This document shows positions 8,870 through 41,660 of a DNA stretch of 64,000 nucleotides, in pieces (the stretch's first letter is position 1; the number at the start of each line of letters is the position of its first letter). A program made the translations under genes and the position numbers. The notes under the pieces are model-generated. The model worked only from the letters and a program-made list of their open reading frames with translations. It had not been told where the DNA came from and did not search any database. The DNA comes from Kaistella sp. SH40-3. GTDB taxonomy: Bacteria > Bacteroidota > Bacteroidia > Flavobacteriales > Weeksellaceae. Location: NCBI RefSeq assembly GCF_030686865.1, contig NZ_JAQYUS010000004.1, positions 186,001-250,000 of the forward strand. Reading direction: 5' to 3'.

Positions 8870-8875
8870 GAATTA

Positions 8876-9169: not shown

Positions 9170-9274
9170 AATATAAGGTTTTAATGTATTCTAATAGTGT
9201 CAAAAATGATTCCAAGATACCTTAATACGCATTTAATTTAGACATAACCATCTTTCAATTCAGATAGAAAAATC

Positions 9275-9282
9275 TATATTTG
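9275..9282 (+). promoter_or_regulatory. -7 promoter element of the cobalamin riboswitch transcript
   Basis: TATATTTG ends eight bases before the first base of riboswitch stem P1, so transcription would begin almost exactly at the aptamer. Confidence 0.65.
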
Positions 9283-9289
9283 CAGTTAT

Positions 9290-9381: not shown

Positions 9382-9476
9382 CTAAAATGCTTTCGCGATC
9401 TGAAGCAGAAAATTCAATTGACAATGCTGTTAATTTTTCTGTTCATTTCAATTATTAATGTTTTAATTCAATAACA

Positions 9477-9887: not shown

Positions 9888-9892
9888 ATTAG

Positions 9893-9927
9893 AAGCCGTC
9901 TCATAAATTAGTGAAACGGCTTTTTTT
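9893..9927 (+). terminator. Intrinsic terminator of the thioesterase gene
   Basis: 7-bp stem AAGCCGT/ACGGCTT (9893-9899 and 9916-9922), extended inward by TCA/TGA after one mismatch, ending in a run of seven T. Confidence 0.8.
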
Positions 9928-10008
9928 ATGATTTTTTAAAAATTCAAGAATGGTCATGTCTATCAAAACCTCGGAGGCTCAATTTAAGTTTTGAGCCATT
10001 AACTATTT

Positions 10009-10242
10009 TTATAAATCGTCATCAAGCATTCTGTTTTTATTATTTTCCCATTCATCTTCATATGCCTTTTCTTGATTTTTCCACGCTTCCGGTGGAACTG
10101 CATTTTCCGCGTGCTTTTTAGGATGACTATTGCTAATTAATTTTTCTTCAACTGAATGATTCTCCAGATTAATAATCTCTTCTTTCTTATTATCCAAAGA
10201 CAATTCGTCGTTTCCCTTTGGAGTATTAGTTTTATTATTCAT
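10009..10242 (-). CDS. Small hydrophilic hypothetical protein
   Basis: A 77-residue charged protein rich in Asn, Glu and Lys, with no hydrophobic segment. The C-terminal half, with PPEAWKNQEKAYEDEWEN, looks better conserved in style than the low-complexity N-terminus. No recognised domain. It lies alone between the thioesterase terminator and the divergent ftsK promoter. It may be a disordered stress or cell-envelope accessory protein, but nothing in the sequence proves that. Confidence 0.5.
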   Translation of the reverse strand: MNNKTNTPKGNDELSLDNKKEEIINLENHSVEEKLISNSHPKKHAENAVPPEAWKNQEKAYEDEWENNKNRMLDDDL

Positions 10243-10423
10243 GATACTTTAATTAAAAGGTTATTGGAGAAGTTGCTTCAAAAATTATTCCGAAAAACCT
10301 GATTTATTTTTATGAATTAGAAGTTATTCAGACCTAAAAAAATTATCATAATTTCCCATTTCTTATCTTTTAAAAACAAAAATAATTCTTAACAATTCAG
10401 AAAAATTTCTTAATTATTATTAT

Positions 10424-10431
10424 TAAATTTG
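10424..10431 (+). promoter_or_regulatory. -7 promoter element of ftsK
   Basis: TAAATTTG, 14 bases before the ftsK ATG, implying a very short leader. Confidence 0.55.
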
Positions 10432-10445
10432 CCTCGATTGATATT

Positions 10446-26032: not shown

Positions 26033-28771
26033 ATGAAAAAACATGTATTTTCTGCAGGATTAATAATGTTCCTAGTTGCGGGTCAGATTTCAGCCCAAGA
26101 TTTTGTGAGCAAAAGAAACATTAACAGCAATGGCAGAGTCGATTTGATCACTTTTAACAGCGGTTTAAGTTTAAAAGGAATAAACACCGAAAGCATTCTG
26201 AAACAAAGTCTACAACTAGATTCTCGGGCAACTTTGCAAAGTATCAAAACTGAACTAGATCCCTTAAGTTCTTTATCCGACGAAAAATTCCAACTCTTTT
26301 ATGATGGAATTAAAGTTCAGTATGTGGTTTACACGCTACATTCCCAAGATGGAAAAATGCAAAGTTTATCAGGAGATATTTTTCCGATTAGTGATGTAAC
26401 AATCAAACCTTCGCTAAATGCTGGAACTGCATTAAATACTGCCATAAAACATACTAATGCTCAAAAATACATGTGGGACGATGCGGAATACGTTAAAGAA
26501 AACTCTTATAAAAAACCACAAGGTGAACTTGTTTTAGTTCCTATAGAGCAGAACGATGGTTCCTTCAAATTGTTATTAGCCTACAAGTTTGATATTTATG
26601 CAACACAGCCTTTAAGCAGAGAATATGTGTATGTTGATGCACTCGATGGTAAAATTTTATTAACCGACGCAATTATCAAACATGCCACTAATTTTTATGG
26701 AGATATTTCTGGCGGTCATCATCACGACTCAACGGAAAATTCTAATAGCCCATTAAGTAAACTAGCTTTAGTTAACGGAAATGCCGCCACAAGATACAGT
26801 GGATCTCAAGTAATTTCTACTACTTTGGTTGGATCAAGCTACACTCTGCGCGATTCATCTCGCGGAAGTGGCGTTTTTACATACAACCTTAAAAAAGGAA
26901 CCGCTCTTAAAACCACTGATTTTACAGATGCAGACAATAACTGGACTGCTGCCGAATTTAACAATACCGCCTTTGACAATGCTGCTTTAGATGCACATTG
27001 GGGCGTTTCCAGTACCTATGATTATTTTAAAAGTACTTTTAATAGAAACAGTTATAATAACGCCGGCGCTGTTTTAAAGAGTTACGTTCATTATAGTTCT
27101 GCCTATGAAAACGCTTACTGGTCAGGATCTGAAATGGTTTATGGAGACGGTGCTTCTACTTTTGCACCATTAACTTCTCTGGATGTTACTGCTCATGAAT
27201 TAGGACACGGGATTTGCGAATATTCTGCCAACTTAGTTTACAGTAGAGAATCTGGAGCGATCAATGAAGGCCTTTCTGATATTTGGGGATCGGTCGTAGA
27301 AAATGCTTTTGCACCTACAAAACAGAATTTCTTAATTGGAGAAGATATCACAAAGGTGTCGCCCTATTATTTAAGATCGATGAGCAATCCGAAGTCGGGC
27401 TTAAGCCCTCAACCAGATACTTATCTTGGAACCAATTGGAAAGCTGCAACCAGCAGTTGTACGCCAACTTCAGCAAATGACCAATGCGGAGTACACTACA
27501 ACAGCGGAGTTTTAAATCATTTCTTCTATATTTTAACCCAGGGAAAAACCGGAACGAATGATAAAGGAAACGCGTATTCAGTTACAGGAATAGGTTTTGC
27601 GAAATCTGCGAAAATTATTTATAGAATGGAGACTTCTTATCTTTCATCCAATTCCACTTATGCTAACGTATTAACTTATGCAATTCAATCAGCAAAAGAT
27701 TTATATGGCGCAGATTCACCTGAAGCAATTGCCACTCAAAACGCTTTATATGCAGTAGGATTAGGAACTGCTTATTCTACTGGAACAGGTGGTGGTGACA
27801 CAACAGCACCTTCCGCTCCAACAAATCTAACTGCAAGTGATACAACTGCTGTAACAACCAATTTAAGCTGGACCGCCTCTACCGATAATGTAGCTGTAAC
27901 AGGTTATGATGTCTACAGTGGCGCTACTTTGTTGGGAAATACCGCGAGCACATCTGCTGCAATTACTGGCTTAACCGCTTCTACAACGTATACTTTCTCT
28001 GTAAAAGCAAAAGATGCGGCTGGAAATACCTCTGCTTCAAGCAATGTTTTATCCGTAAAAACAGGTACGACCACCACTCCACCAGTTGCTTATTGCACAT
28101 CAAAAGGAAATTCTACTTCTGATGAAAAAATCAATAAAGTAGTATTCGGAACTATAAGCAATACTTCTACAGGAACTGCAGGTTACGAGAACTTTACTTC
28201 ACTTTCTACCAATGTAAATAAAGGAAGTGCTTACACGATTACCATTACTCCGAAATGGACTTCCACTTCCTACAATGAAGGTTACGCCGTTTTCATTGAT
28301 TATAATCAAGATGGAGATTTTGCTGATGCAGGAGAAACTGTTTTCACGAAAGCCGCTTCTAAAACAACTCCAGTTTCAGGATCAATTACAATTCCTGCAA
28401 CTGCTCTTAACGGAAATACCAGAATGAGAGTTTCTATGAAATACAATGGAATTCCAACTTCCTGCGAAACGTTCTCTTATGGACAGGTTGAAGATTACAC
28501 CTTAAACATTAAAGCTGCAGGAACAGTAACAACGTTAGTAAACACAAACGCAGATACAATCAATATTTATCCAAATCCAGTGAAAGATATTTTGAATATT
28601 AATGCAAAAGGTGACTATAATTATCAATTAATTTCCATAGATGGAAAAATTGTTAAAGATGGCAATCAATCTGAAAACGCAGTCAACGTTCAAAATTTGC
28701 CAACCGGAATTTATATTATGAAGATTACTCAAGACGGAAAAACTTCCAGTCATAAAGTAATCAAAAAATAA
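26033..28771 (+). CDS. Secreted M4 (thermolysin-like) metalloprotease with T9SS sorting domain
   Basis: A 912-residue extracellular protease. In order: signal peptide (ends near SAQDF), FTP/PepSY-type propeptide (about 40-220), and an M4 catalytic domain with zinc ligands in HELGH (388-392) and E412 (INEGLSDIWG). A fibronectin type III domain follows (about 590-685), then a GEVED domain (about 690-825, ending in YGQVEDYTL) and a type IX secretion C-terminal domain (about 840-912, IYPNPVKDILNI to the lysine-rich end). Family knowledge says the propeptide is removed after folding and the C-terminal signal at the cell surface. It is monocistronic. Confidence 0.95.
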   Translation: MKKHVFSAGLIMFLVAGQISAQDFVSKRNINSNGRVDLITFNSGLSLKGINTESILKQSLQLDSRATLQSIKTELDPLSSLSDEKFQLFYDGIKVQYVVYTLHSQDGKMQSLSGDIFPISDVTIKPSLNAGTALNTAIKHTNAQKYMWDDAEYVKENSYKKPQGELVLVPIEQNDGSFKLLLAYKFDIYATQPLSREYVYVDALDGKILLTDAIIKHATNFYGDISGGHHHDSTENSNSPLSKLALVNGNAATRYSGSQVISTTLVGSSYTLRDSSRGSGVFTYNLKKGTALKTTDFTDADNNWTAAEFNNTAFDNAALDAHWGVSSTYDYFKSTFNRNSYNNAGAVLKSYVHYSSAYENAYWSGSEMVYGDGASTFAPLTSLDVTAHELGHGICEYSANLVYSRESGAINEGLSDIWGSVVENAFAPTKQNFLIGEDITKVSPYYLRSMSNPKSGLSPQPDTYLGTNWKAATSSCTPTSANDQCGVHYNSGVLNHFFYILTQGKTGTNDKGNAYSVTGIGFAKSAKIIYRMETSYLSSNSTYANVLTYAIQSAKDLYGADSPEAIATQNALYAVGLGTAYSTGTGGGDTTAPSAPTNLTASDTTAVTTNLSWTASTDNVAVTGYDVYSGATLLGNTASTSAAITGLTASTTYTFSVKAKDAAGNTSASSNVLSVKTGTTTTPPVAYCTSKGNSTSDEKINKVVFGTISNTSTGTAGYENFTSLSTNVNKGSAYTITITPKWTSTSYNEGYAVFIDYNQDGDFADAGETVFTKAASKTTPVSGSITIPATALNGNTRMRVSMKYNGIPTSCETFSYGQVEDYTLNIKAAGTVTTLVNTNADTINIYPNPVKDILNINAKGDYNYQLISIDGKIVKDGNQSENAVNVQNLPTGIYIMKITQDGKTSSHKVIKK

Positions 28772-28804
28772 ATTTGATTTGCTTCAAATATCGGCTTCGG
28801 TCAA

Positions 28805-28834
28805 AGTCGGGAGAATTACTCTTCCGGCTTTTTT
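28805..28834 (+). terminator. Intrinsic terminator of the M4 protease gene
   Basis: 10-bp stem (28805-28814 and 28820-28829) that is fully paired in RNA if two G-U wobbles are counted, 5-base loop, followed by T residues. Confidence 0.8.
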
Positions 28835-28922: not shown

Positions 28923-30338
28923 ATGAAAATCAATCTTACCAATACCTCATCAATCGAAACAACTCAAAAGTTTACTTTTTTTACCGAAGAAAACTGGCAA
29001 ACAGAAAAAGCAAACTTCAGCCAAAATTTCGACGGTTTATTTTCGGCAAAGAAAGACGAAACTTTTATCCTCCTAGAAAATGGCACCGTTCATTTTTTAA
29101 TCGGCTTAGGAGCAAATCCCAAAAATTTCAGTATTCAGTCAAGTGCGGAAAAATTCTCTTACGATTGTAGAAAAAAAATAAAATCAGAAAGCACTTTTAT
29201 CAATACCGAAAACTTTAATACTGATCATATTGAAAGTTTAGTAAAAGGTTTGTTTTTAGGAACTTATGAATATCCGTTCAAAAGCGAACATCCTCTATTT
29301 AAACCTGGTTTTCAGTTACAAATTAATTCTTTTTCAGAGGAAGATTTAAAAGAATTACAACTCAAAACTTTCGCGATTTGCGAAGGACAATTTGCCTGCA
29401 TGGAATGGCTCAACAAACCTCAAAATTTCAAAAAAGTTCCGCATATTTCTGGATTTTTAAATGAGATTTCAGAGAAATATAATTTAAAACAAACGGTGTT
29501 CGATCGCAAAAAATCGGAGGAATTAGGATTAGGCGCTTTCCTTTCTGTAAATCAGGGAAGTTCGCAAGAAGCAGCATTCACCATTTTAGAATATCATTCT
29601 GAACACCCAAATGCAAAAACGGTAGGATTGGTGGGAAAATGCGTCCTTTTCGATACGGGTGGAATTTCAATTAAAGGTTCAGAAAACCTTCATTATATGA
29701 AATCAGACATGGGCGGTGCAACTGCGATAATGGGAACTTTAATTGCTGCAGCGACTTTACAACTTACCGTAAATTTAGTGGTGATTTTACCGATTACTGA
29801 TAATGCGGTTTCAAATACTTCTTACATTCCAAGCGATGTTGTTACCGCTTATAATGGGAAAACAATCGAAGTTCTAGACACCGATGCTGAAGGAAGAATG
29901 ACTCTTGCCGACGGACTCTCCTATCTCGCAAAAAATTATAAAACCGATGCTTTAATCGATCTGGCAACTTTAACAGGAAGTGCCGTGAGAATGTTCGGTT
30001 CTACTTGTGCAGCATATTTTTCAAACAACAATGATTTGAAAAAATCTTTAGAACAATCTGCAGATGAAACCAACCAAAGATTATGGAATCTTCCACTTTG
30101 GGATATTTGGAAAGACGACTTCAAATCAGATGTTGCAGATTTCAAAAATATATCATCTAAACCTTTCGGAGATTGTATCGTTGCTGGTAAATTTCTGGAG
30201 CAATTTATTATGGAACATCCGAACTGGGCACATCTTGATATTGCGGGAGTTGCGTTTGGAAATGTGCGGTATATGAAAGAAAAAGGAGCAACTGGTTATG
30301 GTATGCAGTTATTGCTTGACTTTTTACAAAAATATTAA
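28923..30338 (+). CDS. Leucyl aminopeptidase family protein (M17)
   Basis: A 471-residue cytosolic M17 metallo-aminopeptidase that removes N-terminal residues from peptides. The metal and catalytic signatures are intact: VGLVGKCVLFDTGGISIKG, then HYMKSDMGGATAIMGT, and the diagnostic NTDAEGR-type block reading LDTDAEGRMTLADGL. The N-terminal domain is divergent, as usual in M17. Strand and spacing do not tie it to the ligase cluster that starts 144 bases further on, although a peptidase next to a peptide-forming cluster is suggestive. Confidence 0.9.
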   Translation: MKINLTNTSSIETTQKFTFFTEENWQTEKANFSQNFDGLFSAKKDETFILLENGTVHFLIGLGANPKNFSIQSSAEKFSYDCRKKIKSESTFINTENFNTDHIESLVKGLFLGTYEYPFKSEHPLFKPGFQLQINSFSEEDLKELQLKTFAICEGQFACMEWLNKPQNFKKVPHISGFLNEISEKYNLKQTVFDRKKSEELGLGAFLSVNQGSSQEAAFTILEYHSEHPNAKTVGLVGKCVLFDTGGISIKGSENLHYMKSDMGGATAIMGTLIAAATLQLTVNLVVILPITDNAVSNTSYIPSDVVTAYNGKTIEVLDTDAEGRMTLADGLSYLAKNYKTDALIDLATLTGSAVRMFGSTCAAYFSNNNDLKKSLEQSADETNQRLWNLPLWDIWKDDFKSDVADFKNISSKPFGDCIVAGKFLEQFIMEHPNWAHLDIAGVAFGNVRYMKEKGATGYGMQLLLDFLQKY

Positions 30339-30445
30339 CAAATAATTAGCATATTAGAAATTTTCTCTGTATAATTGAAATAGGATTCTCAAATATTGAA
30401 CATTAGTTAATAATTGGTATTAATTACTTAATAAAAAAGTGTTTA

Positions 30446-30453
30446 TATTTTTG
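30446..30453 (+). promoter_or_regulatory. -7 promoter element of the ATP-grasp ligase cluster
   Basis: TATTTTTG, 29 bases before the first ATG of the cluster. No good -33 box at 17-23 bases. Confidence 0.5.
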
Positions 30454-30482
30454 ATAATTCAATAATTATTAAATTTCATTAT

Positions 30483-31694
30483 ATGAAGGAGAAAACAATC
30501 GTTTGTATTTCCTGCTATTATAAAGGCTATGATTTTATGGATGAGATGAAAAAGCTCGGCAATAAAATCATCCTGATTGCATCTGAAAGCACGAAAGAAA
30601 AAAACTGGCCCTGGCATGCAATCGATGAGGTTTACTATATGTCAGAAATTGAACCATCCGTCTGGAATCTGGACCATTTGGTTCAGGGATTTTCTCATTT
30701 AATGAAAAGTACAAAGATTGATGTCGTTATTGCATTAGATGATTATGATGTGGAAAAAGCGGCTCTAATCCGCGAATCTTTTCGGATTCCAGGAATGGGA
30801 CAAACAACGCAACGTTACTTTCGCGATAAACTGGCCATGCGGCAAATGGCCAAAGATTCTGAAATTGATGTTCCCGAATTCTGCTCTATTTTTAATGATG
30901 AAACCATCGACGAATTTGTAGAAATGGTATCGCCACCTTGGGTTTTGAAACCTCGGTCGGAAGCATCTGCAACGGGAATTATTAAAATTAAATCGAAAGA
31001 CGAACTGATAACTGCAATTTCTAATTTAGGAGAAAAGAGACACCATTTCCTTTTAGAAAGTTTTAAACCAGGCGATGTTTTCCACGTTGATAGTTTAGTT
31101 TATAACAGTGAAATCGTTTTCGTTTCGGCATCACAATATCTTTCTCCACCAATGGAAGTTTCCCATGATGGTGGAATTTTTCGGTCTAAAACCTTAGGAA
31201 AAAACGCTCCTGAATTTAAAGCATTACAAATTGTAAATCAAAAAGTTTTAAAAAGTTTCGGTTTAAAAAATGGCGCAACACACACTGAATTCATTCGCGG
31301 AAAAGAAGACGGAAAATGGTATTTCCTGGAGACCTCTTCCCGAGTTGGCGGTGCACATATTCCCGATTTGGTCGAAGCTTCAACTGGGATTAATCTTTGG
31401 CGGGAATGGGCAAGAATCGAAAATGCCTGGCTCAAAAATACGCCTTACCAATTAGCAAAACCAAAAGAACTTTTTGGTGGATTAATCATTTGTTTATCCA
31501 GAGATAAACACCCTGATTTTAAGGAATTCGAACAACCTGAAGTTTATAAATTTTTACAGATGGATTACCATGTAGGATTGGTCTATCAATCGAATGATGG
31601 CGATAGAATTCAAGAACTTTTAGAGGAAGCCGCTTTAAAAATATATGACCATCACATCAGCATCATGCCACCCAAAAGTAAACCTACTTCCTAA
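30483..31694 (+). CDS. ATP-grasp ligase (cluster gene 1)
   Basis: A 403-residue ATP-grasp enzyme that would form a C-N bond through an acyl phosphate, as in amino-acid ligases. An N-terminal Rossmann-like domain (1-110) is followed by the ATP-grasp fold. K156 (WVLKPRSEA) is the ATP-binding lysine, and E269 (HTEFIRG), E283 and R287 (FLETSSRVGG) match the magnesium and phosphate ligands. A C-terminal tail of about 60 residues, ending PPKSKPTS, follows the fold. It opens a six-gene block. Substrates cannot be read from sequence; it resembles carnosine-synthase and dipeptide-ligase-type ATP-grasps more than RimK. Confidence 0.82.
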   Translation: MKEKTIVCISCYYKGYDFMDEMKKLGNKIILIASESTKEKNWPWHAIDEVYYMSEIEPSVWNLDHLVQGFSHLMKSTKIDVVIALDDYDVEKAALIRESFRIPGMGQTTQRYFRDKLAMRQMAKDSEIDVPEFCSIFNDETIDEFVEMVSPPWVLKPRSEASATGIIKIKSKDELITAISNLGEKRHHFLLESFKPGDVFHVDSLVYNSEIVFVSASQYLSPPMEVSHDGGIFRSKTLGKNAPEFKALQIVNQKVLKSFGLKNGATHTEFIRGKEDGKWYFLETSSRVGGAHIPDLVEASTGINLWREWARIENAWLKNTPYQLAKPKELFGGLIICLSRDKHPDFKEFEQPEVYKFLQMDYHVGLVYQSNDGDRIQELLEEAALKIYDHHISIMPPKSKPTS

Positions 31695-31747
31695 CTCAAC
31701 GAAAGACCATTCATGAAAATTTCATCCTCTAAAATCTACAATTAATT

Positions 31748-32461
31748 ATGGCGAGAATTGAGCATACCGATTATTATTCACATATTTTAGGAATAAGTTT
31801 AAAACTAGAAGTTACAGGACATTACGGTCATCCGATTATTATGTTTCCTACTTCGCAAGGACAATATACCCAAAATAACGATTTTAAACTGAACGAAAGT
31901 ATCAGTCATTTTGTCGATTCAGGAAAAGTTAAATTGTATAATATAGAAACCATTGATAATGTTAGTTTTTATGATAAGAATATTTCACCAGCAGAAAGAA
32001 TTAGCAATTATGAACTGTATGTACAATTCCTGATTCAGGAGTTTATCCCTTATATTCAAAGTTTACATTCTGTACATCGTGTGGCGGTTGCCGGAGCAAG
32101 TTTTGGAGGTTATCACGCTTCTAATTTCGCCTTCCGTTTTCCAGATGTGGTATCTCACTTATTCTGTCTTTCCGGTGCTTTTTCAATCAGAAATTTTATG
32201 GATGGATTTAGCAACGATCAGGTTTATTTCAATTGTCCGAGAGAGTTTGTGAAAAATGATGAAGCATTTAAATTCAAACATATGCACATTGTTTTAAGTA
32301 CTTCTGATCAGGATATCTGTTTGGATCAAACGCGGGAAATGGCGGGAATATTAGGTTCAAAAGGAATCAATCACTGGTATGATGAACAAAAATGGATCAA
32401 CCATGACTGGCCACTTTGGCGAATGGTTTTCCCAATCTTTATTAGTCGATTTTTTTCTTAA
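31748..32461 (+). CDS. Esterase, alpha/beta-hydrolase fold (cluster gene 2)
   Basis: A 237-residue cytosolic alpha/beta hydrolase of the putative-esterase (D/YpfH-like) type. The nucleophile elbow GASFGGYHA places serine at 118; a catalytic aspartate fits STSDQDICLDQ and the histidine fits INHDWPLW near the C-terminus. There is no signal peptide. It sits between two ATP-grasp genes, 53 and 57 bases from each, so it probably removes or transfers an acyl group in the same pathway. What ester or thioester it acts on is unknown. Confidence 0.8.
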   Translation: MARIEHTDYYSHILGISLKLEVTGHYGHPIIMFPTSQGQYTQNNDFKLNESISHFVDSGKVKLYNIETIDNVSFYDKNISPAERISNYELYVQFLIQEFIPYIQSLHSVHRVAVAGASFGGYHASNFAFRFPDVVSHLFCLSGAFSIRNFMDGFSNDQVYFNCPREFVKNDEAFKFKHMHIVLSTSDQDICLDQTREMAGILGSKGINHWYDEQKWINHDWPLWRMVFPIFISRFFS

Positions 32462-32518
32462 TTTTAATAATTACAAAATTTATTATAACCAACATTAATT
32501 AAAAAAAATAAAAATATT

Positions 32519-33472
32519 ATGGCAAAGAAAGTAGGAATTTTATTCGGTATGGAAGATACTTTTCCGTGGGCTTTTATCGATAAAGTAAATGAACTGGGTA
32601 AAGGAGAAATCATTGCTGAGCCCGTAATGATTGATAAACTGGAACAAGGTGGTGATTATGGTTACGCCGTGATTATCGACCGTATTTCGCAAGATGTCCC
32701 TTTTTACCGTGCCTATTTAAAAAATGCTGCATTAAGCGGAACTTATGTTATTAACAATCCATTTTGGTGGAGCGCAGATGAAAAGTTTTTTAATAATGCA
32801 TTGATGCTACAATTGGGAATTCCACTTCCTAAAACGGTTTTACTTCCTTCAAACGACCGACCGACCAACACGACAGAAACTTCTTTTAGAAATTTAAAAT
32901 TCCCGCATGACTGGGATTATATTTTCAATTACATCGGTTTCCCGGCTTATATGAAACCACATGATGGTGGAGGTTGGCGAAATGTTTACCGCGTTGAGGA
33001 TGCCGAAGATATGTGGACCAAACTGGGAGAAACAGGACAGTTGGTGATGATGCTTCAGGAAGAAATTTTCTTTGAGGATTACTATCGTGTTTATTGTTTA
33101 GGTAAAAAGTACGTTCATATTATGCCATATGAACCAAGAAATGAACACCATCTAAGATATGCCACGACTCACAAAACAGAAGGAAAAGCACGTGAACAAT
33201 TATTGAAAACGATTCACGACTATACTATTAAAATGAATGAAGCGCTAGGTTATGATTTTAATACCGTAGAATTTGCGGTAAAAGACGGAATTCCGTATGC
33301 CATCGATTTCTGTAATCCTGCACCTGATGCGGATCGAAATTCGGTAGGTGAAGAAAACTTTGCGTGGATTGTAGAACACTCCGCAAAACTTGCTATTGAA
33401 AAAGCAAAAGAATATGTTCCTGGAAAACCAAATATTTCTTGGGGGAAATTTGTGAAAGATTCTATTAAATAA
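32519..33472 (+). CDS. ATP-grasp ligase, RimK-like (cluster gene 3)
   Basis: A 317-residue single ATP-grasp protein. The nucleotide lysine fits K146 in AYMKPHDGGGW, the loop LQEEIFFEDYYRVYCLG covers the adenine and ribose contact region, and E251 (NTVEFAV), D263 and N266 (AIDFCNPAPDAD) fit the metal-binding pattern. It is distinct from cluster gene 1 (no visible alignment outside these motifs), so two separate ligation steps are expected. It is followed by a 13-bp hairpin before the GCS2 gene. Confidence 0.8.
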   Translation: MAKKVGILFGMEDTFPWAFIDKVNELGKGEIIAEPVMIDKLEQGGDYGYAVIIDRISQDVPFYRAYLKNAALSGTYVINNPFWWSADEKFFNNALMLQLGIPLPKTVLLPSNDRPTNTTETSFRNLKFPHDWDYIFNYIGFPAYMKPHDGGGWRNVYRVEDAEDMWTKLGETGQLVMMLQEEIFFEDYYRVYCLGKKYVHIMPYEPRNEHHLRYATTHKTEGKAREQLLKTIHDYTIKMNEALGYDFNTVEFAVKDGIPYAIDFCNPAPDADRNSVGEENFAWIVEHSAKLAIEKAKEYVPGKPNISWGKFVKDSIK

Positions 33473-33488
33473 ACTCTTATTCAAAGGA

Positions 33489-33525
33489 TAAATAGTGCAA
33501 TTGCACATATTGATTGCACTATTTA
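33489..33525 (+). promoter_or_regulatory. 13-bp hairpin inside the ligase cluster
   Basis: Arms TAAATAGTGCAAT (33489-33501) and ATTGCACTATTTA (33513-33525), perfectly paired, 11-base loop. The following T run is short, so it may attenuate rather than fully stop transcription before the GCS2 gene. Confidence 0.5.
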
Positions 33526-33562
33526 AATTTTGAAAATATTATAATTCTAAAAAAAACACAAG

Positions 33563-34669
33563 ATGCATAGGTTCACAATAGGCGTTGAAGAAGAATATCA
33601 AATTATTGATGCAGAAAGCCGCGATTTAGTTTCTCATGTTTCTAAAATAATTGAAGGAGGAAAAGCAACTTTAAAAGAAAATTTAAAGCACGAAATGCAC
33701 GAATCCGTTATTGAAATGGAAACGGGTATTTGCCAGAATATTTCAGGAATCAGAGCAGAATTAACTGATCTGCGAAAAAGATTAATTAAAGTTGCCCATG
33801 AAAATAATCTCCGGGTTTCAGGTGGTGGCACGCATCCTTTCTCTCACTGGAAAAATAATCAGATTACAAAAGATGACCGTTACGATAAAATCGTGAGTGA
33901 TTTGGGAGATGTTGCGCGGTCTAATTTAATTTTTGGACTTCATGTTCATATCGGTATTCCGAATCGGGAAGAAGGAATTCGGATTCAGAATGTCATGCGT
34001 TATTTTCTTCCGCATATTTATGCACTTTCGACCAATTCTCCGTTTTGGGTCGGTAGTAAAACAGGATTCAAATCTTATCGTCACGAAATATTTGCGAAAT
34101 TTCCGAGAACGGGTATTCCGAGTTATTTTAATTCGGTCGCTGAGTTTGATGCGTATATTGATTTAATGATTAAAACGGGAACCATTGATAATGCCAAGAA
34201 AATTTGGTGGGATCTTCGCGTGCATCCCTTCTATCCTACTATTGAATTTCGTATTTGCGATATGCCTTTAAGAACCGATGAAACCGTTTGTCTGGCTGCT
34301 ATTATGCAATGTTTGGTTGCTAAAATTTATAAACTTCATCAGCAAAATATGAGTTTCAGAAGTTATAGAAGATTAATGTTAAATGAAAATAAATGGCGTG
34401 CCTCTAAAGATGGTATTCACTCTCATTTAATAGATTTTGGAAAAGAAACCAGTGTACCTTTTGTAGATTTATTAAAGGAATTATTAGAGTTTATCGACGA
34501 TGTTGTTGATGATTTAGATTGCAGAAAAGAAGTTGAATACGCCTGGGAAATCATGAAAAATGGAACCGGCGCCGATCGACAGTTAAAAATATATGAAGAA
34601 ACTGGTGATCTTAAAGCAGTGGTCGATTACATGATTGCTGAAACCGAATTTGGAATTACTTACGAATAA
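33563..34669 (+). CDS. Carboxylate-amine ligase, GCS2/YbdK type (cluster gene 4)
   Basis: A 368-residue member of the glutamine-synthetase-fold GCS2 family, to which YbdK and EgtA glutamate-cysteine ligases belong. It has the N-terminal FTIGVEEEYQIID, then HEMHESVIEMETGI, SGGGTHPFSHW, the metal ligands in FGLHVHIGI, and the C-terminal WWDLRVHPFYPTIEFRICD, all standard positions for ATP and magnesium binding. It would couple a carboxylate, often glutamate gamma-carboxyl, to an amine. True glutathione-forming partner gshB is not next to it. Confidence 0.88.
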   Translation: MHRFTIGVEEEYQIIDAESRDLVSHVSKIIEGGKATLKENLKHEMHESVIEMETGICQNISGIRAELTDLRKRLIKVAHENNLRVSGGGTHPFSHWKNNQITKDDRYDKIVSDLGDVARSNLIFGLHVHIGIPNREEGIRIQNVMRYFLPHIYALSTNSPFWVGSKTGFKSYRHEIFAKFPRTGIPSYFNSVAEFDAYIDLMIKTGTIDNAKKIWWDLRVHPFYPTIEFRICDMPLRTDETVCLAAIMQCLVAKIYKLHQQNMSFRSYRRLMLNENKWRASKDGIHSHLIDFGKETSVPFVDLLKELLEFIDDVVDDLDCRKEVEYAWEIMKNGTGADRQLKIYEETGDLKAVVDYMIAETEFGITYE

Positions 34670-34681
34670 ATCAAATTATTG

Positions 34682-34689
34682 TAAATTTG
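34682..34689 (+). promoter_or_regulatory. Possible internal -7 element before the amidotransferase gene
   Basis: TAAATTTG, 17 bases before the ATG of cluster gene 5. It would allow partial independent expression. No -33 match. Confidence 0.4.
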
Positions 34690-34706
34690 ACCCGTAATAA
34701 ATTAGA

Positions 34707-35537
34707 ATGAAAAACATAAAAATTGCCTTGCTTGATATGAATAACAACCATGTTAATCAGGGTATGCGCAATATTAAAGAGATTTCACAAACATTTAAGG
34801 AACATTCAGATGAAGATGTTTCCATCACGGTGTTTGATGTAAGATTTAAAGATGAGATGCCTGATTTTCAGGAATTTGATATATTCATTTCTTCTGGCGG
34901 TCCGGGAACTCCTCATAAAGAAGGTTATGCTTGGGAACAAAGATTCGATGATTTTTTAGATGGTCTTTGGGAACATAACAAACATTCTGAGCAGAAAAAA
35001 TTTGCTTTTTTAATTTGTCATTCATTTCAAGTCGCCTCTATTCACTGGAACTTAGGAAATATCTGTAAAAGAAAATCCTACTCTTTTGGAGTAATGCCTA
35101 TACATAAAACTGCAGAAGGCAAAGATGATTTTTTATTAAAGAATCTACCGGAACCTTTCTATGCAGTTGATTCCAGAGCATATCAATTTATTGAACCTAA
35201 TTATGAAAGGCTGAATGAAATGGGAATGAAAGTCGTGGCTTTAGAAAAAGTTCGTCCGCATATTCATTTGGAGCGCGCGGTGATGGCGATTCGCTTTTCA
35301 GACGAAATCTTTGGAACACAATTTCACCCGGAAGCTGATTCAAAAGGAATGCTCGAAAATCTAAAAATTGATAAAAATCGATTAGCGATGATTGAAAATT
35401 ACGGCGTAGAGAAATACCTTGAAACCGTTGATAGAATGGATGATCCAGATAAAATAGTATTAACACAATCTCAGATTTTACCGAGGTTTTTACAATATGC
35501 AACAGAACAAGTCATGAAGAGTTTGATGATGGCGTAA
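34707..35537 (+). CDS. Class I glutamine amidotransferase (cluster gene 5)
   Basis: A 276-residue type 1 GATase-like protein. The oxyanion strand ISSGGPGTPHKEG, nucleophile C104 (LICHSFQ), H207 and E209 (TQFHPEAD) give a complete Cys-His-Glu triad. The usual elbow G-x-C-x-G reads L-I-C-H-S here, without either glycine, so the pocket may be altered. It may supply ammonia to a cluster ligase or hydrolyse a gamma-glutamyl bond as PuuD-type members do. A terminator follows, ending the main cluster transcript. Confidence 0.82.
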   Translation: MKNIKIALLDMNNNHVNQGMRNIKEISQTFKEHSDEDVSITVFDVRFKDEMPDFQEFDIFISSGGPGTPHKEGYAWEQRFDDFLDGLWEHNKHSEQKKFAFLICHSFQVASIHWNLGNICKRKSYSFGVMPIHKTAEGKDDFLLKNLPEPFYAVDSRAYQFIEPNYERLNEMGMKVVALEKVRPHIHLERAVMAIRFSDEIFGTQFHPEADSKGMLENLKIDKNRLAMIENYGVEKYLETVDRMDDPDKIVLTQSQILPRFLQYATEQVMKSLMMA

Positions 35538-35592
35538 TTGATTTCTTATCTTTTTAATGAATCAAAAGAAATTCTCAACAACACTAAAAATG

Positions 35593-35617
35593 CTAACTAT
35601 TCATTAGTTAGTTTTTT
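35593..35617 (+). terminator. Intrinsic terminator after the amidotransferase gene
   Basis: Perfect 7-bp stem CTAACTA/TAGTTAG, 5-base loop, six T. It separates cluster genes 1-5 from the gene at 35720. Confidence 0.8.
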
Positions 35618-35719
35618 ATTGAAAATTCAATCGACTTGCAATAAAACTATTCTAAGATAATTAAGATATATCTCTTTTCAAAAGAAGATTTTTACGATTG
35701 ATTTAAAAAAAAGAATTTC

Positions 35720-36904
35720 ATGATACCAAAATACAGACAACAATTCAACCAGGAATATACGACCGAAAAATACAATGCTTTAAAAGATGAACTTGCAAAA
35801 AGAGCAGGAACAGAAGCGCTTTTCCGGGTTTCAGAAAGTCCTATTTTTTTAACGAAAGACTTTAAAAATAAAATCGATGATGCTTGTAACAGCATTATTT
35901 CTCAGATCAAAAAAATGTCTCCCGAGGAATTAGATCAAGCGGTGCCTGATAATTGTAGGGTTCCGAATGATCATCACAAACCTCATTTTTTAGCCATTGA
36001 TTTTGGGATTTGTAAAAACCAGGAAACAGGAGAAATCGAACCTCAATTAATTGAACTTCAAGCATTCCCCACGCTTTATGCTTTTCAGGAAGAATATGAA
36101 GAAGTAGTTTCTGAGCTCTTTCCTTTTTTAAAGGATTTAAGAACTTCACTTCCGAAACCTGAATATATTCAATATTTAAAAGAAGTAATTGTTGCAGATG
36201 AAAATCCAGAGAATGTAGTCTTGATGGAAATTTTTCCGGAGAAACAAAAAACCAGTATTGATTTTGCTTTAACAGAAAAGTATTTGGGAATTAAAACAGT
36301 TTGTTTAACCAAAGTAAAGAAAAAAGGCAAGAAACTTTTCTATGAAAATGATGGAAGATTAATTCCTATTCACCGAATATACAACCGGGTTATTTTTGAT
36401 GAACTGGATCATATTCCCAATCTGAAAACAGAATTTGATTTTCGCGAAGAAGTTGATGTTACTTGGGTTACGCACCCGAATTGGTTTTTCAAAGTATCCA
36501 AATATATCTTGCCAAAATTAGAACATGCTTATGTTCCAAAAAGTTATTTTCTCTCTGAATTTCCAGCTTCTGAAAAATTAGAAAATTTTGTATTAAAACC
36601 ATTATTTTCATTCGCGGGAAGTGGCGTAAATCTTGATCCTACTCCATCAGATATTGAGGCTATTTCAGACAAAGAAAACTTCATTATGCAAAGAAAGGTT
36701 TTCTACGAACCATTGTTTGAAGACATTAACGGTGAATTTTCTAAATCAGAAATCCGTATGCTTTACCTTTGGAAAGAAAACGAAGAAAATCCTTTGTTAA
36801 TGGATAATTTAGCGAGAATGACTAAGGTCGCAATGGCTAACGTAGACTTTAATAAAAAAGATGCCATCTGGATCGGAAGTTCCCTTGCCTTTTTTGAAAA
36901 ATAA
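35720..36904 (+). CDS. Possible circularly permuted ATP-grasp protein (cluster gene 6)
   Basis: A 394-residue cytosolic protein that I do not recognise as a named family. D94 and E112 (FLAIDFG, PQLIELQAFP) and IHRIYNRVIFDELD (218-231) precede a nucleotide-binding-like lysine, K293, in VLKPLFSFAGSGV. That order, acidic motif first and lysine motif later, matches glutathionylspermidine-synthase-type and other circularly permuted ATP-grasp enzymes. It is transcribed in the cluster direction but after a terminator, so it has its own promoter or relies on read-through; a weak -7-like TACGATTG lies near 35693. The assignment is inference from motif order only. Confidence 0.55.
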   Translation: MIPKYRQQFNQEYTTEKYNALKDELAKRAGTEALFRVSESPIFLTKDFKNKIDDACNSIISQIKKMSPEELDQAVPDNCRVPNDHHKPHFLAIDFGICKNQETGEIEPQLIELQAFPTLYAFQEEYEEVVSELFPFLKDLRTSLPKPEYIQYLKEVIVADENPENVVLMEIFPEKQKTSIDFALTEKYLGIKTVCLTKVKKKGKKLFYENDGRLIPIHRIYNRVIFDELDHIPNLKTEFDFREEVDVTWVTHPNWFFKVSKYILPKLEHAYVPKSYFLSEFPASEKLENFVLKPLFSFAGSGVNLDPTPSDIEAISDKENFIMQRKVFYEPLFEDINGEFSKSEIRMLYLWKENEENPLLMDNLARMTKVAMANVDFNKKDAIWIGSSLAFFEK

Positions 36905-36930: not shown

Positions 36931-38511
36931 TTAATGCAGATCGCCCAAATCGATGTTTGCTTTGCCTTTTCCTTTTCGCTCCTTCACGAATAATACAAAA
37001 GGAATACAAACCAAAAACAGAAGTCCTAAATAAAGGAACACATCCATATAAGAAAGAACTGTTGCTTGTTTCAATACGGATAAATCCAGTAATTTATAAG
37101 CAGATTGTAAGGCGACATCGGGAGTGAATCCTTTGGCTTGAAACATCGCTTTCATCCCTGCAATTCTTTGTTGAACATCGAAATCATTTGCATCCAAGTG
37201 GCTTACTAAAGCCGCTCTGTGAATAGATGTTTGATTAGAGATAAAAGTAGTAATCGCTGCAATTCCAAAAGAACCTCCTAACTGACGCATCATTCCCGTG
37301 AATGAAGCACCCTGACCAATTTCCTGACCTTTTAAAGTACTTAATGCCAGTGATGTAATTGGAATAAATAGCAGACCAAGTCCGGCTCCCCTTACAATCA
37401 ACATCCAGAAGAATGCATCTTTCCCCGTGTCTGGGGTAATAATATTGTAGCCCCAAAAACTATAGACAAAGAAAAGCAGTAAACCGAGCGAAACCAGAAT
37501 TTGCTGTTTTACTCCACGCGTCAGTAACCGCCCTATAATTGGCATCATGACTGCAGTGGTTAATGCTGCGGGAATCATCAGTGCGCCGGATTCCAGCGCA
37601 GTCCATCCCATGACACTTTGGGTATAAAGTGGTACAATAAAGGTAGAACCATATAAACCGAATCCGAGAATAAAGGACATGATGGTACCAATTCTTAAAT
37701 TCCCGTTTTTCAAAACTCTTAATTCCACAATTGGATATCTGAAAGTAAGTTCTCGCCAAAGGAAAAGAATAAATCCGATTATTGCAACTGCAGTTAGGGT
37801 GATAATTACTTTGCTGTCGAACCAGTCATCCTCATGACCTTTCTCTAATATGTATTGTAGGGAGCCAACAAAGGCTGCCAATAGTCCAATTCCCAACCAG
37901 TCGACATCTTTTGCTTTTCTTTTCTCTGCAAATTTCGGACTTCGAACAAATTGTAAAGTCATTAAAGTAGCAGCAAATCCAATAGGAATATTAATATAAA
38001 AAATATACGGCCAAGTGAAATTATCAACAATGTAACCTCCTAAAGGTGGACCTAAAGTTGGACCGATAATTACTCCTAAACCATAAATTGCCTGCGCCAT
38101 ACTTCGTTTTGCAAGCGGATACGATTCTGTAATAATGGTTTGCGAAGTTACGAGTAACGCTCCCCCACCGATTCCCTGCATTAATCTGAAAAATACCAAT
38201 TCCCAAATGCTGGTTGCATTACCACAGAGAAATGAGAAGATGGTAAAAATAATAATTGAAGCGGCGAAATAATTTCGTCTTCCAAATTGCGCAGAAAGCC
38301 AACTGGTCATAGGAACAATAATTACATTACCGATTGCATAGGCCGTAATTACCCAACCCACTTCAGAAAGTGTTGCACCTAGGTTTCCTTTCATATCATT
38401 CAAAGCCACGTTTACTATTGTAGAATCTACAATCTCCAGAAGTGCACACAGAATGGCGGTTATGGTTATGATGACGCGTCGTGCGCCGTATTCAACTAAA
38501 TCATCTTGCAT
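36931..38511 (-). CDS. MFS multidrug transporter, DHA2 (EmrB/QacA) family
   Basis: A 526-residue inner membrane proton-drug antiporter with about 14 hydrophobic segments, the hallmark of DHA2. SEVGWVITAYAIGNVIIVP at the first helices and the cytoplasmic SAQFGRRN loop are family motifs. It is the last gene of a TetR-TolC-HlyD-MFS operon, giving a complete tripartite pump. It lies 26 bases from the convergent cluster gene 6. Substrates cannot be predicted. Confidence 0.9.
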   Translation of the reverse strand: MQDDLVEYGARRVIITITAILCALLEIVDSTIVNVALNDMKGNLGATLSEVGWVITAYAIGNVIIVPMTSWLSAQFGRRNYFAASIIIFTIFSFLCGNATSIWELVFFRLMQGIGGGALLVTSQTIITESYPLAKRSMAQAIYGLGVIIGPTLGPPLGGYIVDNFTWPYIFYINIPIGFAATLMTLQFVRSPKFAEKRKAKDVDWLGIGLLAAFVGSLQYILEKGHEDDWFDSKVIITLTAVAIIGFILFLWRELTFRYPIVELRVLKNGNLRIGTIMSFILGFGLYGSTFIVPLYTQSVMGWTALESGALMIPAALTTAVMMPIIGRLLTRGVKQQILVSLGLLLFFVYSFWGYNIITPDTGKDAFFWMLIVRGAGLGLLFIPITSLALSTLKGQEIGQGASFTGMMRQLGGSFGIAAITTFISNQTSIHRAALVSHLDANDFDVQQRIAGMKAMFQAKGFTPDVALQSAYKLLDLSVLKQATVLSYMDVFLYLGLLFLVCIPFVLFVKERKGKGKANIDLGDLH

Positions 38512-38583
38512 TTTTATTGCTGGATATTTAATATCAAATCGATTGGGACTAAATGTAACATTTGCCCAATTTCTTCTTTACAA

Positions 38584-39696
38584 TTATTTTAAATTTACGG
38601 TCGTTTTCACGTTCATTCCCGCACGAAGTTTTTTAGCAATTTGTGGTTTAAGATTTACAAAATCTATTCTTACCGGAAGTCTCTGCACCACTTTCACAAA
38701 GTTCCCACTCGCATTATCTGGAGGAAGTATAGAGAATGAAGATCCTGTTGCTGGCGAAAATGAAGTCACTTTACCCTCAAATTTTTCTTTAGGAAAAGCA
38801 TCGATTTCAATATCAACGGTTTGTCCTTCTACCATTTTTGAAAGTTGAGTTTCTTTAAAGTTGGCAATCACCCAAACATTATTATCTCTCACCAAACTGA
38901 AAAGTTGCGCTCCAGCTTGTACAAACTGCCCTTTTTGAATAGGAACTTTAGCAACGAAGCCATCTTCTGAAGCAACAATTACAGTATAAGAAAGATTGAG
39001 TTTTGCATTTTCAACATCTACTTCTCTTTGTTTCGCTATTGAATTTGCTACACCAATCTGTTCAGAACTTGCTGCAGTTTGTGAGGTTACGATTCCGGTT
39101 TGCTGAGAAACTTGATTTTTTTGATCAATCAAAACCTGTAACTGTCGGTCAGCAGATTGTTTTGCTGCTAAAACAGTTTCATATTGCTGTTGGGTAATGG
39201 TATGATCTTTTACCAAATTTGCATATCGATTTAAATCCTGAGTCGTTTTCCAGACATTTACTTTTGCTGCTTCAATCTGGGCAGTTGCAGTCGTAATGGC
39301 GGCATTTGTAGAATTAATATTTTGTGAAGCAGCATGCGTTGCAGCAATTGCATTTTGCACATTACTTTTTGCAGTTCCCAAAGCAGCAATCGCTTGCTCA
39401 AGAATCATTTTCTGATCACGATTGTCAATGACAATTAACGTATCTCCTTGTTTTACAAACTGATTATCGCTGACTTTCACTTCAGACACATAACCTGAAA
39501 TTTTAGAAATTACAGGACTCATGTTGGAGGCAATCTGCGCATCATCGGTCACTTCGTGTCCTAAACCATAAGAATAAGTTCTATACCCGATGATTCCACC
39601 GACGATTAAAACAACAGCCAAGATAATCGGAAAAGTAAGTGATTTTTTCTTTTTGATTTCTGGGAAAAGTTCTGGTTGTGTATTGTTATCTTCCAT
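38584..39696 (-). CDS. HlyD/EmrA-family membrane fusion protein
   Basis: A 370-residue periplasmic adaptor anchored by one N-terminal transmembrane helix (about 19-40). It has the lipoyl-like half motifs (GYVSEVKVSDNQFVKQGD and the later DGFVAKVPIQKGQFVQAG) flanking a long alpha-helical hairpin rich in Ala and Gln (about 105-215). The beta-barrel and terminal domains follow. It bridges the MFS pump and TolC. The gap of 72 bases to the MFS gene is compatible with one operon. Confidence 0.9.
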   Translation of the reverse strand: MEDNNTQPELFPEIKKKKSLTFPIILAVVLIVGGIIGYRTYSYGLGHEVTDDAQIASNMSPVISKISGYVSEVKVSDNQFVKQGDTLIVIDNRDQKMILEQAIAALGTAKSNVQNAIAATHAASQNINSTNAAITTATAQIEAAKVNVWKTTQDLNRYANLVKDHTITQQQYETVLAAKQSADRQLQVLIDQKNQVSQQTGIVTSQTAASSEQIGVANSIAKQREVDVENAKLNLSYTVIVASEDGFVAKVPIQKGQFVQAGAQLFSLVRDNNVWVIANFKETQLSKMVEGQTVDIEIDAFPKEKFEGKVTSFSPATGSSFSILPPDNASGNFVKVVQRLPVRIDFVNLKPQIAKKLRAGMNVKTTVNLK

Positions 39697-39739
39697 TTAT
39701 TTAAAAAATATTTAAGTTTAATTCTCAGTATAAATTCTA

Positions 39740-41059
39740 TTAATTCAAAGTCAAAGTTCCAGTGGTCTGTAATAGTTTTCGATAGGCTAAGGCTGCGTCT
39801 GCTTTTGCATTCACCACATTTACGTTGGCTGAAATCTGCGCAGTATCCGCATCTAAAAGTTCGGTGATGGTTGCTAAACCGTTATCGAATTTATTTTTAG
39901 TTACACGGAAATTCTCATTCGCTTGGGCAGCCGCTTTTTCGTAAACGGTAATTTTTCTTTTTGCAAATTCAGAATTCTGATAATCTCTGTTGATTTCTAA
40001 TTTAATTTGATCTGTTAACAGTTCATTGCTTGCAGAAAGTTGTTTTTCTGTGGCGGTAGCACGCATTAATGAAGAGTTCTTTTTCCACAGATTATCAATG
40101 TTATATTGAATTCCCAAGCCAATATTTGCAGCATTTGTAATGGTCAGAATTTTCGGAATTTCTGCTGCGACATATCCACCAGTTAAAGCAATAGTCGGTA
40201 AACTTTCTGCTTTTGCTGCTTTGGTGCCAAGTTCCGCCGCTCTTCTTTGATAATCCAAGGCCTGAACATCTTTTCGCTGAGAAACAGCTTGATTTAAATA
40301 AAAAGAAACTGGCTGATTTTCTGTAAGTTCTGAAATGTAATTGGGATCAATTTCTATTTCAGTCGCATCTGGCAATCCCAATAATATATCCATATTGATA
40401 TTGGCGATATTAAAATTATTGTTCGCTTCTAAAAGTTGAAGTTCAATATTTGAAGTTTGTAGATTCGCTTTTAACTTATCGTTTCTTGCGATTATTCCAT
40501 TGTTCTCTAATTTCTGAAAAGATTCATCTCTTTTTTGAGAAGCCGTTAGATTATCTTCTAAAACTTTAATCTGTTGGCTAGCCTTAAACAAATTATTATA
40601 CGCTTGAGAAATGGTATAAGCAATAGCCAATTTGTCGTTTTCAGTACTTAATTTAGAGGCTTCAATGAGGTATTCTGCAGACTGAATTCCGTACTTAATT
40701 TTACCACCTGTGTAAAGCGGTAACGAAGCGGAAACATTTCCGTAAAATGCAGAATTTGCTTTTGGTGCTGCGCTCCCTCCATTTTCAGAAGGTTTCAAAA
40801 CCTTAAGGTCAACATTTGCATTGCCCAAAGCAAGTGCACTTCCAGAAACCTTCAAACTCGGAAGTCTGTTGTTTTTCGCCTCCAGATAATTAGCCGTTGC
40901 TTCTTCTATTTTTGCCTGGTCGATCTTTAGATTTTTAGAATTCTGAATTCCTAAACGTACTGCTTCATCTAGTGTAAGCAATATTTTTGCCTGCGCTTGC
41001 GCTGTTATTCCTATCGCGGAAAAACCAAGCACTACTATTGAACTATATATTTTCTTCAT
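39740..41059 (-). CDS. TolC-family outer membrane efflux protein
   Basis: A 439-residue exported protein with signal peptide ending near QAQA and two homologous halves of long amphipathic helices, as in the OEP family. LTLDEAVRLGIQNSKNLKI and ATITELLDADTAQISANVNVVNA are characteristic helical repeats. It forms the exit duct of the pump. Its start codon lies inside the end of the upstream tetR gene (17-base overlap), so the genes are translationally linked. Confidence 0.9.
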   Translation of the reverse strand: MKKIYSSIVVLGFSAIGITAQAQAKILLTLDEAVRLGIQNSKNLKIDQAKIEEATANYLEAKNNRLPSLKVSGSALALGNANVDLKVLKPSENGGSAAPKANSAFYGNVSASLPLYTGGKIKYGIQSAEYLIEASKLSTENDKLAIAYTISQAYNNLFKASQQIKVLEDNLTASQKRDESFQKLENNGIIARNDKLKANLQTSNIELQLLEANNNFNIANINMDILLGLPDATEIEIDPNYISELTENQPVSFYLNQAVSQRKDVQALDYQRRAAELGTKAAKAESLPTIALTGGYVAAEIPKILTITNAANIGLGIQYNIDNLWKKNSSLMRATATEKQLSASNELLTDQIKLEINRDYQNSEFAKRKITVYEKAAAQANENFRVTKNKFDNGLATITELLDADTAQISANVNVVNAKADAALAYRKLLQTTGTLTLN

Positions 41060-41660
41060 AACCCAGAAGGTGTTTTAATATGTTTTGAACATGTATTTTA
41101 ATTTCATCGAAATATAGATCTTCATAATTTTCATCTGCCTGAAAAAACTCTTTGTAAATAGGAAGCGTATTGAGCGCCGTGAAAATAGTCCCGGAAACTG
41201 TAGAATGCACAAATTCTATCCTTGGTTTTTTATGAAATATTTTTTTCTCAAATCCTTTCTCAAATAGTTCAGTGTAAATGGCCAGAAATCCTTTTTTAGA
41301 TTTTTTTAAAAACTCCGCGATTACTGGATTTTTACTATTCAATTGTTCCCGTTGTAAAATGCGATAAAAAGTTTTTAAATTTTTTACGCGATCTGCATAA
41401 CGATTAATAATAATCACCAGTTTTTCCCACTCATTTAAATTTTGGTTAGCCAAAACATCTTCGCTAAATTTTAAACTTTCATTCATTCTTACCTCAAATA
41501 TTTTTACAAAAAGTTTTTCTTTTGAGCCGAAATAATAAGATATCATAGACACATTTACTTTTGCTTTTTCCGAAATTTCTCTGGTTGAACTTCCTTCAAA
41601 ACCCTTTTCAGCAAATAGTTTTTCAGCATGTAATAAAATGTGTTCTTCTTTGGTAATCAT
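41043..41660 (-). CDS. TetR/AcrR family repressor of the efflux operon
   Basis: A 205-residue regulator. The N-terminal helix-turn-helix (about 7-50, with GSSTREISEKAKVNVSMISYYF) is typical of TetR, followed by a helical ligand domain. It leads the operon and overlaps the tolC gene by 17 bases. A palindrome over the -33 box of its promoter (41707-41724) is the expected operator, so autorepression released by drug binding is the likely mode of control. Confidence 0.88.
   Translation of the reverse strand: MITKEEHILLHAEKLFAEKGFEGSSTREISEKAKVNVSMISYYFGSKEKLFVKIFEVRMNESLKFSEDVLANQNLNEWEKLVIIINRYADRVKNLKTFYRILQREQLNSKNPVIAEFLKKSKKGFLAIYTELFEKGFEKKIFHKKPRIEFVHSTVSGTIFTALNTLPIYKEFFQADENYEDLYFDEIKIHVQNILKHLLGYEENI

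Follow-up and report, generated by a model that had tools for sequence, protein, structure and literature searches.

Gene content of the ligase cluster and its inheritance in Bacteroidota

Why should four different carboxylate-amine ligases be encoded side by side with an esterase, an amidotransferase-fold protein and an aminopeptidase, and what might they make together? The question is raised by a locus of Kaistella sp. SH40-3, found in a stretch of 64,000 nucleotides (referred to below as the window) that is part of contig 4 of the 3.25 Mb genome (NZ_JAQYUS010000004.1, positions 186,001 to 250,000). Open reading frames (ORFs) of the window revealed seven co-directional genes on the plus strand (28923-36904), in the order M17 aminopeptidase, AG1, EST, AG2, GCS, GAT and GSP. 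The ligase families represented among them share a common chemistry, phosphorylation of a carboxylate followed by attack of an amine. On balance, we favor synthesis and recycling of a small molecule of about 2-4 units, either a peptide or a peptide-amide, made in the cytosol independently of ribosomes and non-ribosomal peptide synthetases. A gamma-glutamyl linkage, or a similar one through a side-chain acyl group, is its most likely feature. The analysis shows the identities and folds of the gene products, the conservation of catalytic residues and of gene order, and joint gain and loss; from these we infer possible substrates, order of action and product.

We used AG2 as the marker gene of the module and determined the distribution of the genes from AG1 to GSP in a sample of 198 Bacteroidota genomes. 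AG2 was present in 72 of these, EST in 81, GCS in 62, GSP in 60, GAT in 50, AG1 in 43, and F9, a possible counterpart of GSP described below, in 12. The share of genomes with a given gene that also had AG2 was 43/43 for AG1, 58/60 for GSP, 58/62 for GCS, 49/50 for GAT and 70/81 for EST. Fisher tests ignore relatedness, which inflates raw co-occurrence counts. We therefore repeated the comparison with stratification by family, which controls for relatedness at the family level only, and still found overlap with AG2 above expectation (P 2.9e-8 to 4e-12).

Joint gain and loss was well visible in one family (f15). All 7 of its AG2 genomes also had AG1, GSP, GAT, GCS and EST. AG1, GSP, GAT and GCS were found in none of its 8 genomes without AG2, and EST in 2 of them. 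AG1 and GAT are not linked to AG2 in this family: they are found on different contigs or, in a genome consisting of a single contig (G124), more than 1 Mb away from it. Physical hitch-hiking does not explain co-inheritance of such unlinked genes.

For statements on the composition of the set, and only for these, we excluded three genomes (G007, G087, G160) with divergent AG2 paralogues (33, 37 and 42% identity), leaving 69. The near-universal set in the phylum sample consists of AG2, EST and either GSP or F9; GCS, GAT and AG1 are accessory.

Conservation of gene order

Gene order was followed in two sets of loci: the best 80 of 588 AG2 relatives, here called named loci, all of them from Bacteroidota, and the AG2 neighbourhoods of 71 genomes of the phylum sample. 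Order counts kept stretches cut by contig ends and dropped matches below 150 bits to EST2, a second esterase. In 4 of the 71 sample loci, AG2 was missing from the non-overlapping ORF set and was recovered in a second reading of the neighbourhood. In the 80 named loci, with best matches only, AG2-GCS were adjacent in 75, GCS-GAT in 69, GAT-GSP in 69 and EST-AG2 in 64. In the sample loci, the adjacent pairs were AG2-GCS (35), EST-AG2 (26), GAT-GSP (21), GCS-GAT (17), GCS-GSP (11) and F9-GAT (10), with median gaps of -1 to 84 nt. For the four pairs counted in both sets, median gaps were 5-46 nt in either, and some of the genes overlap. In the window, 37-182 nt separate successive genes from AG1 to GSP. 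The order is kept across many families, well above chance. EST2 was encoded divergently from EST in 31 named loci.

The earlier note on this DNA, made from the sequence, had described the six ORFs from AG1 to GSP as an amidoligase cluster; all are present as described, on the plus strand, and their homologues co-occur well beyond the genus. The boundary has to be moved, since the M17 gene, which ends 144 nt upstream of AG1, belongs to the unit in this lineage.

Families, folds and conserved residues of the proteins

AG1 (30483-31694, plus strand, like all seven genes) matched the ATP-grasp_4 family with 36.7 bits (Pfam cut-off 27). Its nearest solved structures, 4wd3 (profile match 1.3e-23) and 3vot, are L-amino acid ligases, while BacD ranks lower. 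Domain and structural relatives together identify it as a putative L-amino acid ligase. The GCS protein (33563-34669) is a YbdK-type GCS2 carboxylate-amine ligase. It exceeded the cut-offs of PF04107 (2.4e-62, 211 bits against 21), TIGR02050 (302 against 176) and NF010039 (534 against 371), and matched the YbdK structures 1tt4 and 1r8g.

The AG2 gene (32519-33472) encodes a LysX/ArgX/RimK-like ATP-grasp ligase. There was no Pfam match, and scores remained below the curated cut-offs of rimK_fam (32.7 bits, 143.4 needed) and LysX_arch (25.7 bits, 275.6 needed). An AlphaFold2 model (predicted local distance difference test, pLDDT, 78) placed ArgX/LysX, Ddl and RimK among the closest folds. Among the solved structures that come closest are ArgX with LysW, RimK, and the graspetide ligases MdnC and PsnB. 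By its modeled fold, AG2 may work like RimK or LysX.

GSP (35720-36904) exceeded the cut-off of no Pfam or NCBIfam family (PF03738, 13.4 bits, 29.3 required). Its AlphaFold2 model (pLDDT 90) adopts the YgiC/GspS/glutathione-synthetase fold over the whole chain, suggesting an acid-amine ligase of the permuted ATP-grasp type. The top Foldseek match was 3n6x, a putative glutathionylspermidine synthase. Identity to YgiC/YjfC, GspS, eukaryotic-type glutathione synthetase and fungal Cp1B was 8-14%.

The three remaining proteins have hydrolase or amidotransferase folds. EST (31748-32461) is a PF00756 alpha/beta-hydrolase esterase, over the Pfam cut-off; Ser118, Asp189 and His219, presumably the catalytic residues, were invariant in 23 sequences. 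GAT (34707-35537) is a class I glutamine amidotransferase (GATase)-fold protein (PF00117, 36.2 bits, cut-off 22.8), in which Cys104, His207 and Glu209 were invariant in 21 sequences; we assume that these form the class I Cys/His/Glu triad. The M17 protein (28923-30338) is of the leucyl-aminopeptidase type (PF00883, 3.5e-99).

None of the seven proteins has a carrier domain by Pfam, and none exceeded a curated Pfam or NCBIfam cut-off for Ddl, purine synthesis or another finished pathway. The identities that the earlier note had given to the ligases, esterase and amidotransferase stand, by family cut-offs and, for AG2, by fold. Its suggestion of a circularly permuted ATP-grasp protein at 35720 is borne out by the modeled fold. 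The claimed lack of a carrier domain and of a fit to an established pathway is likewise upheld.

A possible replacement of GSP by F9

GSP was found in 58 of the 69 AG2 genomes, and F9 in the other 11. A twelfth, distant F9 match occurred in a genome that also has GSP (G137). F9 scores below cut-off against permuted ATP-grasp families and, like GSP, leads to the structure 3n6x (profile match, E 2.9e-9). When the profiles of F9 and GSP were compared directly, a relationship found no support (probability 4). At a motif of the metal site, GSP has an invariant E-x-Q, where F9 has E-x-N. The distribution and the shared structural relative suggest that F9 probably replaces GSP in some lineages. In 11 sample loci from five families, AG2, F9 and GAT are together, and GCS and GSP are away from AG2; in these loci, EST2 follows GAT in 8 and AG1 comes next in 3.

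Associated genes and borders of the unit

The M17 gene immediately precedes AG1 in 23 of the 80 named loci. Among 43 AG1 loci from other genomes, 12 have it next to AG1 in the same orientation, and 16 have a PF00756-type esterase encoded within 2.5 kb of AG1, again in the same orientation. Three of these esterases are EST2 and 13 are EST3; the latter figure is partly circular, because neighbours of AG1 served to build the EST3 model (Pfam was run on three EST3 proteins). In loci from sister genera (L032, L033, L113, L126), a PF00756 esterase precedes M17. By tblastn, no such esterase is present in the window, and two other Kaistella loci, L111 and L112, lack it at this place; L111 gave a weak match at EST only. 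In L113 and L126 this esterase is N-terminally extended, and its place is occupied in the window by an M4 metallopeptidase gene.

Other associates were found further along the cluster. In L070 and L077, GCS and GSP flank the gene of an M29-type aminopeptidase (Pfam run on the L077 protein; the M29 model was derived from the two proteins that it detects). GSP is immediately preceded by a gene for an Amidohydro_3 protein (g8) in 8 loci from two families (L232-L239), and a similar protein was read from the sequence of L048 between GCS and GAT (6740-8566). In L243, a sodium:solute symporter and GSP share one open frame of 867 amino acids (8037-10637); in L244, from a related genome, the symporter is a separate gene just upstream of GSP (10587-11969). 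These associates, each of them lineage-specific, suggest that small molecules are imported, trimmed and recycled.

In seven loci (L063, L071, L075, L079, L081, L084, L094), a HutH-like aromatic amino acid lyase (F10) was read after AG2. F10 was not counted as part of the module, most of the seven loci having many other neighbours in common. The GCS-GAT gap of L131 contains two short frames resembling a toxin-antitoxin pair as read from sequence, each of which recurs in one other locus only.

The left border of the unit in the window may be marked by a terminator-like hairpin with a 12-pair stem and T-run (28803-28831, plus strand), a consensus match only, 3' of the M4 gene; 9 such sites were found in the region, where 5.5 were expected. 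The right border is set by a convergent EmrB-like efflux-pump gene (36931-38511, minus strand). Promoter-like sequences were not enriched, with 7 matches to the Bacteroidota-type pattern (6.7 expected) and 31 sigma-70-type sites (32.3 expected). Beyond these borders, sequence reading gave a large metallopeptidase of the M4 type that ends in a sorting-type tail (26033-28771) and an efflux operon (36931-41660, minus strand) resembling EmrB/EmrA/TolC and including a TetR-type regulator.

Relation to other known systems

A cyanophycin synthetase gene follows GSP in 12 of the 80 named loci, from the Chryseobacterium group (among them L032, 13858-18532, and L033). Cyanophycinase and isoaspartyl peptidase accompany it in 9 of the 12. 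In L042, these two adjoin the core. In the genome sample, AG2 occurred in 10 of the 23 genomes that have cyanophycin synthetase and in 62 of the 175 that lack it, an overlap no greater than chance (p 0.49). GSP (p 0.34), AG1 (p 0.79) and EST (p 0.27) were not associated with the synthetase either. GAT alone showed a weak association (10 of 23, p 0.042, uncorrected).

BshC of bacillithiol synthesis was found in 196 of the 198 genomes; the two in which it fell below threshold are G109, which carries AG2, and G156, which does not. There is thus no missing-thiol niche for the module, which neither replaces nor tracks BshC, and a thiol that substitutes for bacillithiol was discarded as a candidate product; the thiol that the earlier note had considered is unlikely if it was meant to replace the usual one. 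The spread of BshC agrees with the bacillithiol derivatives that have been reported from Bacteroidetes (PMC6282198).

The search for a ribosomal precursor peptide covered frames of at least 15 codons in 25 loci (L111-L135) from the family of the window and its near kin. No frame in the gaps was common to more than 2 other loci, and none in the 600 nt after GSP to more than 3 others. Small frames hence never recurred in more than 4 of the 25 loci, in agreement with the earlier statement that a ribosomal precursor is lacking. PADLOC matched none of the seven proteins to anti-phage defence. Relatives of AG2 were absent from the plasmid collection and from viral contigs, where none of 51 pattern matches was a relative, the collection of phage records not having been searched. 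By title and abstract, no paper on this gene set was among the matches listed in the open-licence literature.

Stand-alone ligase pathways and amidoligase operons are an already known kind of system, of which this gene set is a variant. Iyer et al. reportedly made a general prediction of amidoligase operons in 2009, in which ATP-grasp and COOH-NH2 ligases are co-located with hydrolases and peptidases. The present cluster has this co-location in common with them; the distribution, the unlinked co-inheritance and the complementarity of GSP and F9 come from the present analysis. Bacilysin, too, is made by stand-alone ligases. Dapdiamide and E-64-type pathways use such ligases in succession and lack carrier proteins (PMC12568646), and a later paper states that linked ligases often act one after the other (PMC4431377, citing Iyer et al. 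2009). AG1 brings our cluster near to these pathways, being closest to L-amino acid ligases, with BacD lower. In contrast to them, the module is without visible tailoring oxidase or warhead genes, occurs in many families of one phylum, and has exopeptidases and esterases attached.

For the individual ligases, known relatives are informative to a different degree. GCS passes the cut-offs of the YbdK family and NF010039 and so resembles GCS2 gamma-glutamylcysteine ligases, but the genes around it differ from those of glutathione synthesis. We know of no settled in vivo role of YbdK-type enzymes. GSP shares its fold with YgiC/YjfC, GspS, eukaryotic glutathione synthetase and Cp1B, but differs from them in its low identity and in its setting in a multi-ligase cluster. 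Cp1B acts in E-64 synthesis (PMC12568646).

Proposed pathway and alternative explanations

In the proposed pathway, GCS would convert a carboxylate to an acyl phosphate and couple it to an amine; the gamma-carboxylate of glutamate is the probable substrate. GSP, whose fold is that of enzymes extending gamma-glutamylcysteine or glutathione at the C-terminus, would act second and add the next amino acid or amine, with F9 in its place in other lineages. AG2 might add a further residue or a cap. AG1 would make or extend a dipeptide partner, and the M17 (or M29) exopeptidase would trim and recycle the dipeptide. The role of GAT could be cleavage of the gamma-glutamyl bond in turnover, or ammonia supply for a terminal amide, and EST and its relatives may remove an ester from precursor or product (deprotection). 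The joining of the cluster by exopeptidases of two families, M17 and M29, supports this scheme.

Several observations weigh against it. The weakest point is the absence of GCS from 11 of the 69 AG2 genomes, alongside that of GAT from 20 and AG1 from 26, so that a gamma-glutamyl step cannot be universal and may be optional. Some genomes also carry members without AG2, namely GSP (G144, G154), GAT (G154), GCS (G004, G144, G154, G167) and EST (11 genomes). Moreover, fold likeness does not fix the substrate, and every locus comes from one phylum, Bacteroidota.

A more specific form of the favored synthesis and recycling pathway is possible but doubtful. It holds that the product is a novel gamma-glutamyl peptide or peptide-amide that serves many Bacteroidota, in addition to bacillithiol, as cofactor, carrier or protectant. 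A GCS2 ligase would make it together with a ligase of the glutathione-synthetase fold (the latter swapped for a second permuted-ATP-grasp-like enzyme in some lineages), and it would have its own recycling enzymes. If the product were a glutathione-like thiol (gamma-glutamyl-cysteinyl-X) additional to bacillithiol, as another special case, the shared operon of a GCS2 family member and a ligase of the glutathione synthetase fold would find a natural place. So would the attached hydrolases, as M17 enzymes include Cys-Gly peptidases, class I GATase-fold proteins include gamma-glutamyl peptidases, and PF00756 includes S-formylglutathione hydrolase. But the near-universal BshC leaves no thiol gap, part of the AG2 set lacks GCS, and the E-x-Q of GSP is E-x-N in F9. 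In addition, a published gene survey did not assign gshA-B to Bacteroidetes (PMC6282198). Altogether, such a thiol appears quite improbable.

The same proteins could instead handle amines: the ligases would gamma-glutamylate or aminoacylate a toxic or nutrient amine, and GAT, the esterases and the exopeptidases would later undo this. The Puu putrescine pathway, with the ligase PuuA and the class I GATase-fold hydrolase PuuD, is the model for such logic. The class I residues retained in GAT would suit it, and the GSP fold is that of the peptide-polyamine ligases YgiC/YjfC and GspS. The Amidohydro_3 protein and the symporter at GSP could also be read in this way, yet both are lineage-specific. 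NspC, which belongs to one route of polyamine synthesis, was found in 8 of the 198 genomes, too few to speak for or against a polyamine substrate; of these, 7 carry AG2 (p 0.0039) and 4 carry GSP (p 0.25; neither value is corrected for relatedness), but it is missing from 65 of the 72 AG2 genomes. Furthermore, the conserved set contains no recurrent oxidase, dehydrogenase or transaminase, and four different ligases exceed the need of such a route, which we regard as unlikely. Modification of a macromolecule, with AG2 adding residues onto a protein, carrier peptide or lipid in the manner of RimK, LysX/LysW or a graspetide ligase, would be in line with its structural kin. However, small frames in or just after the cluster recurred in no more than 4 of the 25 loci, carriers elsewhere in the genome not having been sought, and GCS2 and YgiC-type partners have small molecules as substrates. 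We consider this explanation distinctly unlikely. An accessory role in the metabolism of cyanophycin (multi-Arg-poly-Asp) could account for the synthetase genes that follow GSP and for the weak association of GAT. It has very little probability given chance-level co-occurrence of AG2, GSP, AG1 and EST with the synthetase; in the genome that the window comes from, the synthetase gene and AG1 are some 58 kb apart. That functionally unrelated genes are neighbours by chance is hardly credible: cluster limits do vary by lineage, but co-occurrence within families, even of unlinked members, contradicts it unless the genome sample is flawed.

Significance

The AG2 proteins nearest to that of the window come from Kaistella and Chryseobacterium, among the best 80 of 588 relatives, and the carriers named in this set include species of Chryseobacterium, Elizabethkingia, Dyadobacter and Algoriphagus. 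The marker gene is present in about one third of the sampled Bacteroidota. Co-inheritance of four ligases together with peptidases and esterases implies a metabolite that is maintained by selection. With the carrier genomes, the near-universal gene set and a probable replacement enzyme defined, comparative metabolomics could find the product.

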